Shown in pieces: positions 6,821 to 53,335 of a stretch of 64,000 nucleotides of DNA (positions are counted from its first letter, which is position 1; every line of letters starts with the position of its first letter). A program made the translations under genes and the position numbers. Below the pieces are notes generated by a model. The model had not been told where the DNA came from and ran no database searches. It worked only from the letters and a program-made list of their open reading frames with translations. The DNA lies in the NCBI GenBank assembly GCA_947495555.1, contig CANLZI010000002.1:248001-312000 (forward strand). Reading direction: 5' to 3'. This DNA is from an uncultured Erythrobacter sp. Its GTDB lineage: Bacteria > Pseudomonadota > Alphaproteobacteria > Sphingomonadales > Sphingomonadaceae.

Positions 6821-6892
6821 TTAAATCTAGAAACGTGAACCATACCCGCCCGAACAATTTTTAATGGGCCGAAATAGGGGGCTAGAATAGCC

Positions 6893-7975
6893 ATGGATAG
6901 GAAGAAGCTGGTATTGCTGTTGGGAGCGCTGGTCATTGCGATCGGCACCGCTTTGGCAGCTCGTAGCATGTTCGCTGGTGCAGCTGCACCTGAAGTAGAA
7001 GCGGCTCAGCCGGTTCCACAAGGACCAAAAGTTTTGGTGGCGCAACGCGCTTTGCCCACCGGCACCATTATCACCGTCGACGCGCTGAATTTCCAGCAGT
7101 GGCCGGAAGAACTGGTGCAGGACGCTTATTTCCTTGATGGCGAATCCGACATCAACAAACTGATCGGCACCGTTGTGCGCCACCCCATCACTGCGGGTGA
7201 GCCAGTTACTCAAGGTTCGCTGGTTCGTCCTGGCGATCGTGGGTTCCTTGCAGCGGCGCTTGGCCCAGGCATGCGGGCGGTCACCGTTCCTGTGTCAGCC
7301 AATACCGGTGTTGCCGGCTTTGTCTTCCCAGGCGACCGGGTTGACCTTGTTTTGACCCAAACCGTTGCCGGTGAAGAAGGCGCGCCATTGAAGGCAGCTG
7401 AAACAGTACTGCGCAATCTGCGCGTGCTTGCCACCGACCAAACAACCAATCAGATCAAAACCGAAGACGGTAAGACGGTTGTTCGCGGCTTCAAGACAGT
7501 CACCATCGAAGTGACGCCAAAGATTGCTGAGAAAGTTGCTGTGGCCCAAACCATCGGCACGATCAGCCTGGCGCTTCGCTCTATCGCTGACAACCAAGTT
7601 GAACTCGAGCGTGCGATTGCTTCAGGCGATATCGTAGTGCCCGAAGATGCCACTCCCGAAGAAGAAGAGCGTCTGTTGCGCGCCGCGATGAACCGTCCGG
7701 TCGACAAAGGCACAACCTTCAGCACCGGTGGTGATGTATCGCGCTTCCAACGTTCTACCATTCCGCCACAGACCAAGGCTGCTGTTGCTGCCAACGCTGC
7801 GGCAGGTCTGAACGGAGCCGCACGTCCAGGACCAAGCGTCCGAGTGACACGGGGTAACAACACGCAAGTTGTTGGTGTTGGATCAGGCGCTGGTCGCATG
7901 CTCAACCAACAAGCTGCAGGCGTTCGCAGTGGCGGTCGCACTGTACCCGCCGCCAGCGCTGCGCTGGTCCGGTAA
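6893..7975 (+). CDS. cpaB: Flp pilus assembly protein CpaB/RcpC
   Basis: N-terminal TM, SAF-domain-like RALPTGTIITVDALNFQQWPEE, VVRHPITAGEPVTQGSLV; position in Tad cluster. Confidence 0.93.
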   Translation: MDRKKLVLLLGALVIAIGTALAARSMFAGAAAPEVEAAQPVPQGPKVLVAQRALPTGTIITVDALNFQQWPEELVQDAYFLDGESDINKLIGTVVRHPITAGEPVTQGSLVRPGDRGFLAAALGPGMRAVTVPVSANTGVAGFVFPGDRVDLVLTQTVAGEEGAPLKAAETVLRNLRVLATDQTTNQIKTEDGKTVVRGFKTVTIEVTPKIAEKVAVAQTIGTISLALRSIADNQVELERAIASGDIVVPEDATPEEEERLLRAAMNRPVDKGTTFSTGGDVSRFQRSTIPPQTKAAVAANAAAGLNGAARPGPSVRVTRGNNTQVVGVGSGAGRMLNQQAAGVRSGGRTVPAASAALVR

Positions 7976-16017: not shown

Positions 16018-16803
16018 TTAGCGTGGAGCCATACGGATGGCGCCGTCCAAGCGGACATCTTCGCCATTGAAATAACCGGTTTCGATCATCGTCATGGCCA
16101 GCTTTGCATATTCTTCAGGGTAACCCAGACGCTTTGGGAATGGGACAGAGGCGGCCAGCGCTTCTTTCACTTGAGGCGGTGCCGCATTCATCAACGGGGT
16201 TTCAAAAATGCCGGGCAGGATGGTGTTCACCCGGATGCCTTCGCGCATCAGATCGCGCGCGATCGGCAAAGTCATGCCAACAACGCCGCCCTTAGATGCA
16301 GAATAAGCGGCTTGGCCCATCTGGCCATCCTCAGCCGCAACCGACGCAGTGTTGACGATCGCACCGCGATTGCCCTCGTCCGACAGTGGATCTGCCGTCA
16401 TCATGCCGGCGGCTGATTTGGCAATACAGCGGAAGGTGCCGATCAGATTGACCTGAATCACAAAGTCAAACGCGGACAATGGGAAATGCTTGATCTCGCC
16501 CGTTTGCTTGTCACGGCTGGCGGTCTTGATCGCATTGCCGATGCCTGCGCAATTGACCAGAATGCGTTCTTGGCCATGCGCTTCGCGCGCTTTGGCAAAG
16601 CCTGCGTCCACATCATCATCGCTTGTCACATTGACCTTGCAAAACACGCCGCCAATGTCGGCGGCAACAGCTGTGCCTTTTTCTTCGTTCATGTCGAAGA
16701 TGGCGACTTTGGCGCCCTTGGCCGCAAGTGCACGAGCAGTGGCCTCTCCAAGGCCGGATGCGCCGCCCGTAACAACTGCGGGGGTGTTAGCTGATACTTC
16801 CAT
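16018..16803 (-). CDS. SDR family NAD(P)-dependent oxidoreductase (3-hydroxyacyl-CoA dehydrogenase type 2-like)
   Basis: [66 protein letters not shown]. Confidence 0.93.
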
Positions 16804-16830
16804 TATCGTAATTCCTCTTAAGGTATTGAA

Positions 16831-31715: not shown

Positions 31716-31735
31716 GTGTTGCGTTTATGCAACAC
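31716..31735. repeat. Inverted repeat GTGTTGC-N6-GCAACAC upstream of clpB
   Basis: Perfect 7-bp arms, about 36-55 bp upstream of the clpB start; candidate operator. Confidence 0.5.
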
Positions 31736-31903: not shown

Positions 31904-33478
31904 TTAGGGGCGCCAATTGCGCGCCATCTCGTCCAGCAACATCACGCCGAACCCGCGTGCGCCCACCGGGATCATGGGCCGGTTTGTGTCTGTACGATCC
32001 ACTGCAGCCATATCGATATGCACCCACGGGAGCTCTTCTGGCACGAAATATTCGATGAAGTGAGCCCCGGCACTGGCACCAGGCGCAGGGCTGGTGCTGG
32101 AGTTTTTCACATCGGCAATGTCGGATTTCACAGCCTTACGATAGGCCGGATGAAGCGGTAGACGCCACAGCGCTTCTCCGGTTTTGCCTGAAGCCTCCAT
32201 GGCTGCCTCGGCATGGGCGTCTTCGCGCGCAAACATCGCCGCAAATTCTGGGCCTAACGCGCCGACTGCCGAGCCGGTTAGCGTGGCGATATCGACCAGC
32301 GCGAACGGCTTTTTCTCTTTCACAGTGTATTCAATCGCGTCAGACAGTACCAAACGCCCTTCAGCATCAGTGCTCAAAATCTCGATTGTCTTACCGGACA
32401 TTGTGCGCACCACATCGCCAGGGCGTTGGGCATTATCGCTCGGCATATTCTCGGCCAAGGCAACAGCCGCAACAACATGCACTGGCGCCTTGGATTTGGC
32501 CAAGGACAATACCGCGCCGGTCACAGCGGCCGCGCCCGACATATCGCCTTTCATCTCCCACATGCCCCGGTTGGATTTTATAGAAATACCGCCGGTATCA
32601 AAGGTGATGCCCTTTCCGGCCAATGCAATTGGCGCGCCGCCTGCTCCGCGATAGGTGATCATCATCAGACGCGCGCCGCGACGGCTGCCCTGCCCCACAC
32701 CGGCAATCGCGCCCATGTTTAGGCGCCGCATGTCGGCTGCATCCAGCACTTCAATTGTGACGCCCTCAACACCGGCAAAGGCAGCCTTGGCGCGGCCCAC
32801 AAAACTGGCCGGATAGATCACATTGGCAGGCTCGTTGATCAAATCACGCGCCAGCCGGACGCCTTCCGCCAATGGCTCCGCCCGACCTTCCCACAGATCT
32901 TTCGCCGCCGAGGCTTCGCTGCCCACCACAGTAATACGGTCCGTAGGAGGCTCTTTGCGGTCGCTCTTATAACGGTCGAACCGATATTGCCCCAAAGTCG
33001 CACCAAACGCTGCATCAGCCATAGCGGCTGCATCGGGCAGGCCAACGATCGCAAGCGGAGCCTCTTGATCCGCCATCGCCTGAGCAATCTTTCCGCCCAA
33101 TTCACGCCAATTCATGGGGCCATCATCGCTCGCCGCGCTGAACAGCGTCAGCTTGGGACGGCCATCAATCCGCGGCACTTCAGCAGCTGTGCCGGCATCA
33201 CCAGAAAGTGCATCCGAACTGATGATCGCCTCGGCCAAGGCGCGGTCAGTATCGCTCAATGGTGCATCATCGGGCAATGCGTCGCCGGTTATTACGATTG
33301 CAACGGCCGCAGCATCAGGCGCACGCTGGGCAAATTTGATCGGCCTTTCGGCAGAATTCTCGACCGTGGCCGGAGCAATGCCAGAGCCCATGACGTCCTG
33401 CGCCATGGCTGAATTCGGCAACGCTAATGCGATCGAAGCTGCAAAGGAAAGGGCGACAATTTTGCGGTGACGGGTAAT
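31904..33478 (-). CDS. Exported leucyl aminopeptidase family protein (M17); proposed ATT start at 33478
   Basis: M17 motifs LAGKGITFDTGGISIKSNRGMWEMKGDMSGAAAV and STDAEGRLVLSDAIEY. ORF track starts at TTG 33421, inside a signal peptide; see finding. Confidence 0.85.
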   Translation of the reverse strand: MTRHRKIVALSFAASIALALPNSAMAQDVMGSGIAPATVENSAERPIKFAQRAPDAAAVAIVITGDALPDDAPLSDTDRALAEAIISSDALSGDAGTAAEVPRIDGRPKLTLFSAASDDGPMNWRELGGKIAQAMADQEAPLAIVGLPDAAAMADAAFGATLGQYRFDRYKSDRKEPPTDRITVVGSEASAAKDLWEGRAEPLAEGVRLARDLINEPANVIYPASFVGRAKAAFAGVEGVTIEVLDAADMRRLNMGAIAGVGQGSRRGARLMMITYRGAGGAPIALAGKGITFDTGGISIKSNRGMWEMKGDMSGAAAVTGAVLSLAKSKAPVHVVAAVALAENMPSDNAQRPGDVVRTMSGKTIEILSTDAEGRLVLSDAIEYTVKEKKPFALVDIATLTGSAVGALGPEFAAMFAREDAHAEAAMEASGKTGEALWRLPLHPAYRKAVKSDIADVKNSSTSPAPGASAGAHFIEYFVPEELPWVHIDMAAVDRTDTNRPMIPVGARGFGVMLLDEMARNWRP

Positions 33479-33568
33479 GACTAAATCCTCACTTCAAACA
33501 ATGATCAGTTGACCTGTATCAGCGTCAAAGCAATTGTTGGTTTCAAATGCAATAATAAGGATGCTCGA

Positions 33569-35767
33569 ATGCGCAAATGGTTGGTTGGCGGGGGCTTTGG
33601 TCTGCTCGCTCTGGTGATTTTTGGCTTTATCGGCCTTGCCACGTGGGAGCCATTCTTTGCCGAACGTGGAGCTGAACCACCAGCCGAAACCTACAGCGCA
33701 GAAATTATTCGGGACGAATATGGCGTGCCGCATATCTACGGCGCGCGCGATGCTGATGTCGCTTTTGGTATCGCAATGGCTCATGCCGAGGACGACTTTA
33801 CCACCCTTCAAGATGTGATTGCCATGAGCCGCGGCCGCTTTGGAGCTATCGCCGGTCAAGACGGAGCGGCCGTCGACTATGTGTACCATTTACTCGACGC
33901 GCGCGGCACAGCAGAGCGGAACTATCCCGGTCTACCTGCCGATACTCGCGCCTTGTTCGACGCCTACGCCAGCGGGCTCAATCAATACGCAGCCGATCAC
34001 CCGGCCGAGTTGAAACTGGCGAATCTTTTTCCCGTAAACGGAATGGATGTGGCCGCCGGGTTCGCCTTGCGCCAACCCTTCTTCTTTGGCCTTAACGGTG
34101 TGATCCAGCCCTTGGTCTCAGGCGAACCTCTACGCCGGGAATTCGGCCCTGACATCCCCGGCTTTCCGCGCGATGCGCAAGGTAATGTGGTCGAAACGCC
34201 CGCTGCCGAGCAGACTGCGCGCAATTTCTCTCCGCTTGGCGCTGATGCCGCATTGGCTGGCTCCAACGCATTTGCAGTGGCACCGGCAAAGTCAGGTGGA
34301 CCAACCACGCTGATTTCCAACTCGCACCAACCGCTGAGGGGCGGTGTTGCCTGGTATGAATTCAGCGTTGAAAGCGAAGAAGGTTGGCACTTTACTGGGG
34401 CCAATTTCCCTGGATCGCCCTTCCCCTTTTTGGGCCACAATCGCCATTTGGGCTGGACCAATACAGTCAACCGGCCCGATATGGTCGATGTCTATCAGCT
34501 GGAAATGAACGAGGCTGGCGATCAATACATGTTGGACGGAGAATGGCGCGATCTTGAAGAAAAGACCGTCACCCTACCGGTCAAATTGGGGCCCATTGTC
34601 TTGCCCATTCGCCAGACGGTTTATCGCAGCATCCATGGCCCCGTTGTCAGGAACGACAATGGCACCTTTGCCATCCGTTATGGCGGGATCGATCAGCTGA
34701 ATCAGCTGGATGCCTATTACCGGCTGAACAAAGCCACCAATTTGGAGGAATGGCAGGCGCAGATGGCGCGCATGGCCATTCCCAGCACCAATTTCATCTA
34801 CGCCGACGAAGCGGGCAATATCGCTTATGTCTATAATGCCGCTCTTCCCGATCGACCCGAAGATACCGAGCAAAACTGGCGGGGCATCTTACCGGGCGAT
34901 CGCAGCGATCTGATCTGGAACGGAGCTGTCGAGTATGCTGAGCTGCCCAAGCTGATCAATCCTGCAAGCGGATGGCTGTATAATTCCAACAATGAACCCT
35001 ACACCGCAGCAGGCGCTGGCAGTGATCTGTCACCGGATGATTTCTCGCCCATACTTGGCGTAGAGCGCAAGCAAACCAATCGCTCGCTGCGCGCTTTTAA
35101 GCTCATGTCAGAGGCCAATCTGCTCGACCGCGCCAATCTTGAGCGGATCAAATATGATACCGCCTATGAACGCGAAAGTTACGTGGATGATCTGTTCACT
35201 GCGGCCGAAGCCCTGGACGTTGACGGCGAGTTGGCCGAGGCCCGCGACCTTTTGCTCGGTTGGGATTTCACCGCCGATAACGAAGGCGCAGGCGATGCGA
35301 TTGCCCTGCTGATGATCCGTGATTTCATGTCGGCTGAATATGGCAATCGGCCCTATCCGGATGTAGAGGAAAAACTGCGCGAGGCGACCGATCACCTCAT
35401 CACTCATTTTGGCATACTGGACCCGCCCATGTCGGACTTGTTGCGCTTACGCCAGGGCGATGTCGATCTGCCGTTGGATGGCGGATCTGACACTTTGCGC
35501 GCCTCGACCACATGGCAGGTTGACGATGATGGTCGGCTGCAATTGGTCCATGGTGACAGCTTCATCCAGTGGGTAGAATGGAACGAGGGAGAGCCTGTAT
35601 CCTCACGATCGATCCAACCATTCGGCTCAGCCACCACCCGGCCACACAGCCGACATTACACCGATCAAATGCAAATGTTTGTCGATCATGAGCTGAAGCC
35701 AGTGCATTTCTGGCGCGAAGATGTGTTGGCTAATGCCTCGCGTCGATATGTGGTTGAGTCCAACTGA
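33569..35767 (+). CDS. Penicillin acylase family protein (AHL/penicillin/aculeacin acylase-like Ntn hydrolase)
   Basis: EIIRDEYGVPHIYGARDADVAFGIAMAHAEDDFTTLQ; LAGSNAFAVAPAKSGGPTTLISNSHQP (GSN Ntn Ser); FLGHNRHLGWTNTVNRPDMVDVYQ; N-terminal TM/signal anchor. Confidence 0.94.
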   Translation: MRKWLVGGGFGLLALVIFGFIGLATWEPFFAERGAEPPAETYSAEIIRDEYGVPHIYGARDADVAFGIAMAHAEDDFTTLQDVIAMSRGRFGAIAGQDGAAVDYVYHLLDARGTAERNYPGLPADTRALFDAYASGLNQYAADHPAELKLANLFPVNGMDVAAGFALRQPFFFGLNGVIQPLVSGEPLRREFGPDIPGFPRDAQGNVVETPAAEQTARNFSPLGADAALAGSNAFAVAPAKSGGPTTLISNSHQPLRGGVAWYEFSVESEEGWHFTGANFPGSPFPFLGHNRHLGWTNTVNRPDMVDVYQLEMNEAGDQYMLDGEWRDLEEKTVTLPVKLGPIVLPIRQTVYRSIHGPVVRNDNGTFAIRYGGIDQLNQLDAYYRLNKATNLEEWQAQMARMAIPSTNFIYADEAGNIAYVYNAALPDRPEDTEQNWRGILPGDRSDLIWNGAVEYAELPKLINPASGWLYNSNNEPYTAAGAGSDLSPDDFSPILGVERKQTNRSLRAFKLMSEANLLDRANLERIKYDTAYERESYVDDLFTAAEALDVDGELAEARDLLLGWDFTADNEGAGDAIALLMIRDFMSAEYGNRPYPDVEEKLREATDHLITHFGILDPPMSDLLRLRQGDVDLPLDGGSDTLRASTTWQVDDDGRLQLVHGDSFIQWVEWNEGEPVSSRSIQPFGSATTRPHSRHYTDQMQMFVDHELKPVHFWREDVLANASRRYVVESN

Positions 35768-51749: not shown

Positions 51750-52358
51750 CTATTCGCCAACCCAGTCAGCCACTTGTCCGGCAACATCATTGGCGGCCCG
51801 GTTCAGCGCAGCCCCAACCGCGCCAGCGCGCGCTTCCACGCCCTGCTCGACCGCTTCGAAACGCTGCGTTTCCATCGTGCCATCGGTGCTTCGCCGTATC
51901 GCATCAAAGCGCACGAGCACTGATGAATTGCTGGCATCATAACCAAATTCGCGCAGCACGCCGCGCAATCTGCTTTGCGCTGACAGGCCCGGATCATCGG
52001 CATCCAGCACCAGGCGGTTGGTCCGCACGCGCACAGTTTCGGCCAGCAAGCGGCGGAATAGCCGAGCAGGTTTTTCAACCCACACGGCGTCTTTCAAATA
52101 AGCGACTTCGGTGCTGCTGACCTGCACCGGAACGCGCAGCACATCGATTTTTGCAGGCACCTCGGGTTCATAAATGGCCAAGGCCTCGTCACGCGAAGCG
52201 CTGGAGGTGGCGCCCGCGGGCGCAGATTGGCTTGCTGTTAGATCCAGCAGGCTTTCGGGCGGTTCGCTGCCCAGGCTGACACAGCCGGTCAAAAGCAGGC
52301 TTGATCCGAGCAGAGCCGGAGCAAGTATAGCCAATGGTTTTGCGCGGCGAGTGATCAT
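51750..52358 (-). CDS. ABC-type transport auxiliary lipoprotein (PqiC/MlaE-associated)
   Basis: Lipobox SSLLLTGCVSLG; VQVSSTEVAYLKDAVWVEKPARLFRRLLAETVRVRTNRLVLDADD; follows MCE gene. Confidence 0.85.
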   Translation of the reverse strand: MITRRAKPLAILAPALLGSSLLLTGCVSLGSEPPESLLDLTASQSAPAGATSSASRDEALAIYEPEVPAKIDVLRVPVQVSSTEVAYLKDAVWVEKPARLFRRLLAETVRVRTNRLVLDADDPGLSAQSRLRGVLREFGYDASNSSVLVRFDAIRRSTDGTMETQRFEAVEQGVEARAGAVGAALNRAANDVAGQVADWVGE

Positions 52359-52384
52359 GGCGTCTCTCAATATGTGCAGTGGGG

Positions 52385-53335
52385 TCATGGCTTGTAATCC
52401 GGCAGAGTTTCGCCCTGGATCAATGCCCCTGCCCCTTGATTGTCGAGCTTTTCGGTGATCGCGCGCAGTGCTTTGCTGGTGGCGCGCAGATCGCGCAACG
52501 TCGCTTCAGCTGCGGGCAATGTTGTATCGGTCAACTCACGTGCGGCAGGCCTTGTGTCTTCCAGTGTGGCTGACAGCGAAGTGGCCGCCTTGTTGGCCGC
52601 CGCCAGTGTGTCTCGCAATTCCTCGGCCAGCGAAGCGCCTTCGCCATTGATCAGTTTGTCGGTTGATCCCAGAACGGTTTCGAATTGGTTTAATGCCTCG
52701 CTTGCTTCACGCAAAGTGACCTGCAATTCGGCCATGGTGCGTTCGACCTGCGGGCTGGCATCGGCCAGATTAGCGGTCATTTGATTGGTGTTGCGCAAGA
52801 TGCCTTCCATCTGCTCCAAATTGGTGTCGGACAAGACTTGCGTCATACGCTCGGTCAAGGTCGCTAGCCGCTCAAGCAGCAATGGAGCATTGGCCAGAAC
52901 CGCGCCCAAGCCTTGGCCTGGAGCAGGCGGGATAACTGGCACCCCTTCGGGGCAAGCGGTGGTTTCGCAACTGATCGGAGGTTGGCCGCTGCGCGCGCCG
53001 TCCAGCAGAATGGTTGAAACGCCGGTAAAGCTGCCCTGCATGGTGGCCGATGTGCCCACCAGAATAGGCACTTCATCGCGCACCCGCACTCGCACCCGGA
53101 CAAATTCGGGATCATCTTCTGACAGGGTAATCTCTGACACTTGACCTACCGGCACACCGGCAAAGGCCACTTGCGATCCATTAGCCAAACCAGAAACCGA
53201 CTGCTTGAAGAAAATGTCATATTCATTGTGCTGGCCCTGCCCCAACCGGGCAATCCAGACGATGGCAGCCGCCAGCAATGCCAAAAGCAGCAGCGTTACG
53301 GCACCGACCCAGATATGATTTGCGCGTGTTTCCAT
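52385..53335 (-). CDS. MlaD family (MCE) lipid-transport protein
   Basis: N-terminal TM then YDIFFKQSVSGLANGSQVAFAGVPVGQVSEITLSEDDPEFVRVRVRVRDEVPIL...ATMQGSFTGVSTILLDG; long helical C-terminus. Confidence 0.93.
   Translation of the reverse strand: METRANHIWVGAVTLLLLALLAAAIVWIARLGQGQHNEYDIFFKQSVSGLANGSQVAFAGVPVGQVSEITLSEDDPEFVRVRVRVRDEVPILVGTSATMQGSFTGVSTILLDGARSGQPPISCETTACPEGVPVIPPAPGQGLGAVLANAPLLLERLATLTERMTQVLSDTNLEQMEGILRNTNQMTANLADASPQVERTMAELQVTLREASEALNQFETVLGSTDKLINGEGASLAEELRDTLAAANKAATSLSATLEDTRPAARELTDTTLPAAEATLRDLRATSKALRAITEKLDNQGAGALIQGETLPDYKP

Follow-up and report, generated by a model that had tools for sequence, protein, structure and literature searches.

An M17 aminopeptidase gene of Erythrobacter with a predicted signal peptide and a probable AUU start codon, kept as AUU or AUC in a small lineage

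Conserved near-cognate start codons are already known from infC, sigR, ccpN, cvfC1 and pncA; proven cases are few, and those compared here comprise regulators, translation factors, a small protein and one enzyme, so that an exported metabolic enzyme is unusual among them. Initiation factor IF3 discriminates against AUU, AUC and AUA starts, as established for infC (PMC5472188, PMC13009471). The infC genes of E. coli, Streptomyces and S. aureus begin with one of these codons behind a Shine-Dalgarno sequence and keep it within their lineages, and infC autoregulates, its product repressing such starts. In Xanthomonas, the ATT start of infC has been seen by peptides (PMC5559785). Streptomyces sigR has an IF3-repressed GTC start (PMC5472188), ccpN of S. 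aureus and B. subtilis (AUA) and cvfC1 of S. aureus (AUU) yield, in poor medium, about 10% of what AUG gives (PMC13009471), and pncA of Borrelia burgdorferi starts at AUU (PMC13398362). A limited literature search returned nothing on near-cognate starts in alphaproteobacteria or Erythrobacter and no description of an AUU or AUC start in an exported aminopeptidase.

The window analyzed here, a 64,000-nucleotide stretch of DNA from an uncultured Erythrobacter, carries on its minus strand (31904..33478) a gene for a predicted periplasmic M17 leucyl aminopeptidase of 524 amino acids plus stop, translation of which very probably starts at an AUU codon (33476..33478, minus strand). As in infC, an AUH start codon is combined with a Shine-Dalgarno sequence and conserved in the lineage; unlike infC, the gene encodes a metabolic enzyme that is exported and for which no feedback is known. 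It shares with sigR a conserved non-canonical start and the avoidance of canonical starts within the group, but the codon is AUU or AUC rather than GUC or GUU, and sigR encodes a sigma factor whose repression by IF3 has been measured (PMC5472188). The ccpN and cvfC1 genes likewise have a conserved weak start codon with a properly spaced, though longer, Shine-Dalgarno sequence (PMC13009471), and encode a transcription repressor and a small protein rather than an exported enzyme. Like the aminopeptidase, pncA is an enzyme gene, in its case for a nicotinamidase, and because of its AUU start databases give the protein in truncated form (PMC13398362). The starts of ccpN and cvfC1 were demonstrated by Ribo-Ret and reporters (PMC13009471) and that of pncA was proven experimentally (PMC13398362), whereas the start of the aminopeptidase is predicted here from sequence.

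In the minus strand, an in-frame TGA (33496-33494) is followed by AGT GAG GAT TTA GTC ATT ACC CGT CAC CGC AAA, and from the ATT the frame runs on as ACC CGT CAC CGC AAA ATT GTC GCC CTT TCC TTT GCA GCT TCG ATC GCA TTA GCG TTG, with no ATG, GTG or TTG between the TGA and this last codon, the TTG at 33421. No canonical codon in the frame is usable as a start, and a GAGGA Shine-Dalgarno sequence (33486..33490, minus strand) is properly spaced, at 7 nt, to an AUH codon. The initial annotation had given this ATT at 33478, this Shine-Dalgarno sequence and this spacing, all of which hold, and had warned that gene callers would choose the TTG; a mechanical ORF caller does exactly that, returning 505 amino acids. 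The 27-nt string at the gene start is single copy in the window's own genome assembly, and a scan of viral contigs for it gave 0 matches. RNA folding around the start codon revealed no shared structure.

The gene is patchily distributed, being present in 10 of 114 genus genomes and in 40 of 401 genomes of the family sample, yet no genome of the first sample is without an M17 gene. Scanning named genomes yielded 80 loci, almost all of them carrying a Sphingomonadales label, and after duplicate removal we read 92 distinct orthologues. Wherever these have a canonical start, it lies at the head of a signal peptide; we saw none beginning at the TTG-equivalent residue without one, the finding that the initial annotation had named as fatal to its reading. 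The exceptions begin with ATT (the window genome, G006 and UBA9348/G121) or ATC (G043, G102 and Parerythrobacter lacustris), and all 10 genus members that have the gene are non-ATG (three ATT, two ATC, four GTG and one TTG). In G006, a second species with a 95% identical protein, the region reads GAGAGGATTTAGTC-ATT, so that both the ATT and its Shine-Dalgarno sequence are conserved while the TTG has become CTG. The orthologue alignment proposed in the initial annotation thus finds the ATT kept in G006 and ATT or ATC at the corresponding position of four others, which read AGGAGCTTCCTC-ATC (G043), GAGAGGCAAGACC-ATT (UBA9348), AAGGGGAGAACAACC-ATC (P. lacustris) and GGGGGCATAGCC-ATC (G102) and lack any canonical start where the signal peptide begins. 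The SD-like stretch of the six ATT/ATC genes ends 6-8 nt before the start codon, and its pairing energy and spacing are comparable to those of ATG, GTG and TTG orthologues. Metagenome bins account for two of the ATT/ATC genomes (G043, locus L033, and UBA9348, locus L039), and in one of them the gene contains a stretch of N; a search of the genus around P. lacustris found the gene in no further genome.

Read from the ATT, the protein begins with a 26-residue signal peptide, MTRHRKIVALSFAASIALALPNSAMA|QD (33401..33478, minus strand), with a charge of +3, a hydrophobic core and an A-M-A site. Its n-, h- and c-regions and small-X-small cleavage site, judged by charge, hydropathy and motif only rather than by a trained predictor, bear out the complete signal peptide that had been proposed, and make a periplasmic enzyme with a predicted cleavable Sec signal peptide the best reading. 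Measured from ATT or ATC, the signal peptides of the six rows are 26, 26, 28, 26, 26 and 26 residues long, compared with 22-27 residues in the eleven rows measured that start with ATG, GTG or TTG. Given these lengths, the absence of a usable canonical start and the CTG of G006, the start is pinned to the ATT or ATC. Callers limited to ATG, GTG and TTG cut off the signal peptide in these genomes and would call a periplasmic enzyme cytosolic.

The rest of the protein appears to be a functional enzyme. Pfam matches on the 524 residues are Peptidase_M17 (1.9e-107) and M17_N (2.2e-06), and the catalytic domain (PF00883; 31934..32854, minus strand) scores 359.6 bits against a cut-off of 25. The best of the NCBIfam leucyl aminopeptidase equivalogs (PRK00913 group) reaches 444.4 against a cut-off of 471, and the protein is therefore filed under the M17 family rather than under a specific equivalog. 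The motifs KGITFDTGG and TDAEGRL, which align with solved M17 enzymes, hold putative metal-binding and catalytic residues including the expected lysine and arginine; K289, D294, K301, D312, D371, E373 and R375 are invariant in five orthologues, and their roles are presumably those of their counterparts in PepA. The protein is related to solved cytosol aminopeptidases and resembles M17 leucyl aminopeptidases such as PepA in its catalytic domain (PF00883) and putative metal ligands, but it carries a signal peptide and has STDAEGR where its best solved relative has NTDAEGR. Between the window and G006, dN/dS is 0.074 for the whole gene, 0.10 for codons 2-26 (8 changes only) and 0.073 for the rest, pointing to strong purifying selection.

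Three other accounts of the start can be weighed against these data. The TTG (33419..33421, minus strand) is the first canonical in-frame codon, and initiation there would give a cytosolic aminopeptidase; we consider this very improbable, as the codon lies in the interior of the signal peptide, as the initial annotation had already observed, has no Shine-Dalgarno sequence and is CTG in the nearest orthologue, G006. On this account, the other ATT/ATC relatives would moreover begin translation at unrelated sites within or past the cleavage region, and a cytosolic product is at odds with the signal peptide of every canonical-start orthologue. Initiation one codon earlier, at the GTC (33481), as the case of Streptomyces sigR might suggest, seems improbable, if slightly less so: GTC starts exist (PMC5472188), the codon directly adjoins the ATT, and two relatives (L038 and L044) have GTG-ATT, from which a GTC could have arisen by mutation, but it would lie only 4 nt from GAGGA, and its counterparts in the other ATT/ATC relatives are CTC, ACC, GCC and ACC while the ATT or ATC is kept. 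That a sequencing error or frameshift, generally a common cause of missing starts, hides an upstream ATG is next to impossible, because the same ATT occurs in assemblies of two distinct species (G000 and G006; dS 0.32), which removes the initial annotation's worry about a single error, because four others have ATT or ATC, and because no upstream start is conserved in another frame. A mini-frame upstream in the window, GTG-AGG-ATT-TAG, is lost in G006 and was rejected. The AUU start is thus supported by the lack of another credible start, the Shine-Dalgarno sequence and its spacing, the conservation of AUU or AUC in the lineage, signal-peptide length and purifying selection.

In a tree of the mature part of the protein (38 rows, quick method), the five genus ATT/ATC rows form one clade (SH-aLRT 95) that is sister to a GTG/TTG clade (97), suggesting an origin of the weak start among bacteria whose close relatives use GUG or UUG. 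P. lacustris, the sixth member with such a codon, stands apart, so that switches between canonical and ATT/ATC starts must have occurred twice or more. Among four ATT/ATC lineages, 35-45% of four-fold sites are identical, against a saturation expectation of 27-36%, so the AT of the start codon has outlasted most synonymous turnover. Only the third base shifts, between T and C, as would be expected of a start that is used but weak. This position clearly lacks the customary bias towards ATG; however, with neutral third positions the chance, from base frequencies, of finding no ATG in any of four saturated lineages is about 0.18, and selection for weakness is therefore not proved. Given that ATT or ATC has been retained at this position by relatives within the small lineage, weak initiation looks like a maintained property of the gene. 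The ATG, GTG, TTG, ATT and ATC variants found in near relatives offer a natural series for studying the evolution of start strength.

We posit that the AUU is read as methionine by initiator fMet-tRNA positioned by the GAGGA Shine-Dalgarno sequence, and that discrimination by IF3 against AUU and AUC would make initiation weak and hold the enzyme at a low level. By analogy with the known cases, we lean towards such an IF3-limited low output, likely about 10% of that from AUG if the S. aureus measurements apply. An internal precedent for AUH starts in the family comes from infC, which in nine of these genomes (loci L151-L159, from the genus and P. lacustris) has a conserved ATA start in the arrangement SD-spacer-ATA-GCC-CGT-CCA; the window genome's copy (L155, G000:C1:1237824-1238315) reads AAAGGAGAAAGCCCC-ATA-GCC-CGT-CCA. 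Most of the infC genes compared have an ATG seven codons past the ATA that would mislead gene callers, and P. lacustris infC, which is without this ATG, has no other in-frame start before the conserved domain. Synthesis of the aminopeptidase might then follow IF3 activity, as that of infC does and in line with the link to initiation stringency drawn in the initial annotation, for which the ATA of infC is the nearest internal support, but we are cautious here and regard regulation of the gene through IF3 as unlikely. Equally doubtful is an IF3-controlled set in Erythrobacteraceae, in which the AUA-started infC would set the level of IF3 and thereby tune a periplasmic peptidase through its AUU or AUC; such a set, if it exists, would couple the capacity for protein synthesis to the recovery of peptides beyond the cytoplasm.

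A competing account leaves the AUU start in place and bears only on its regulatory meaning: the ATT may be a neutral or mildly harmful leftover, unregulated by IF3, that is tolerated in a dispensable gene because its product is required in small amounts only. We consider this a real possibility, though short of probable. It fits the presence of the gene in so few genus genomes, and neutral drift of the third base is compatible with the data; it sits less well with the strong purifying selection on the protein, with an AT retained across lineages near synonymous saturation and with a second such start, in P. lacustris, outside the clade. A general loss of start stringency was also considered and rejected, as every orthologue found of the control gene clpB, the next gene downstream, begins with ATG, and a scan of the window gave no second gene of this kind. 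In that crude scan of 52 non-overlapping long ORFs, the aminopeptidase gene alone had an SD-preceded ATT, ATC or ATA as a credible start; of three other ORFs flagged, 6878-7975 and 51750-52505 have ordinary ATGs when read closely, and in 16018-16830 an ATG with a Shine-Dalgarno sequence before it follows one codon later.

The divergent gene (33569-35767), about 90 nt from the ATT, reads by eye as a penicillin-acylase-type Ntn hydrolase whose N terminus is hydrophobic; its orthologues, a second control, start with ATG or GTG, and the divergent aminopeptidase/acylase pair is conserved in near relatives. Between the two genes, a GGTCAAC motif (33508..33514, minus strand) found by eye recurs in orthologous intergenic regions, and on the plus strand, as GTTGACC, it resembles a -35 box that may belong to a promoter of the divergent gene. 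On the other side, the gap that separates the aminopeptidase stop codon from the start of clpB holds a perfect inverted repeat, GTGTTGC-N6-GCAACAC (31716-31735). Of 160 retrieved loci, counting duplicates, 61 have this pattern, in most cases a short distance past the aminopeptidase gene, which makes the repeat a candidate for a conserved operator that overlaps a promoter of clpB.
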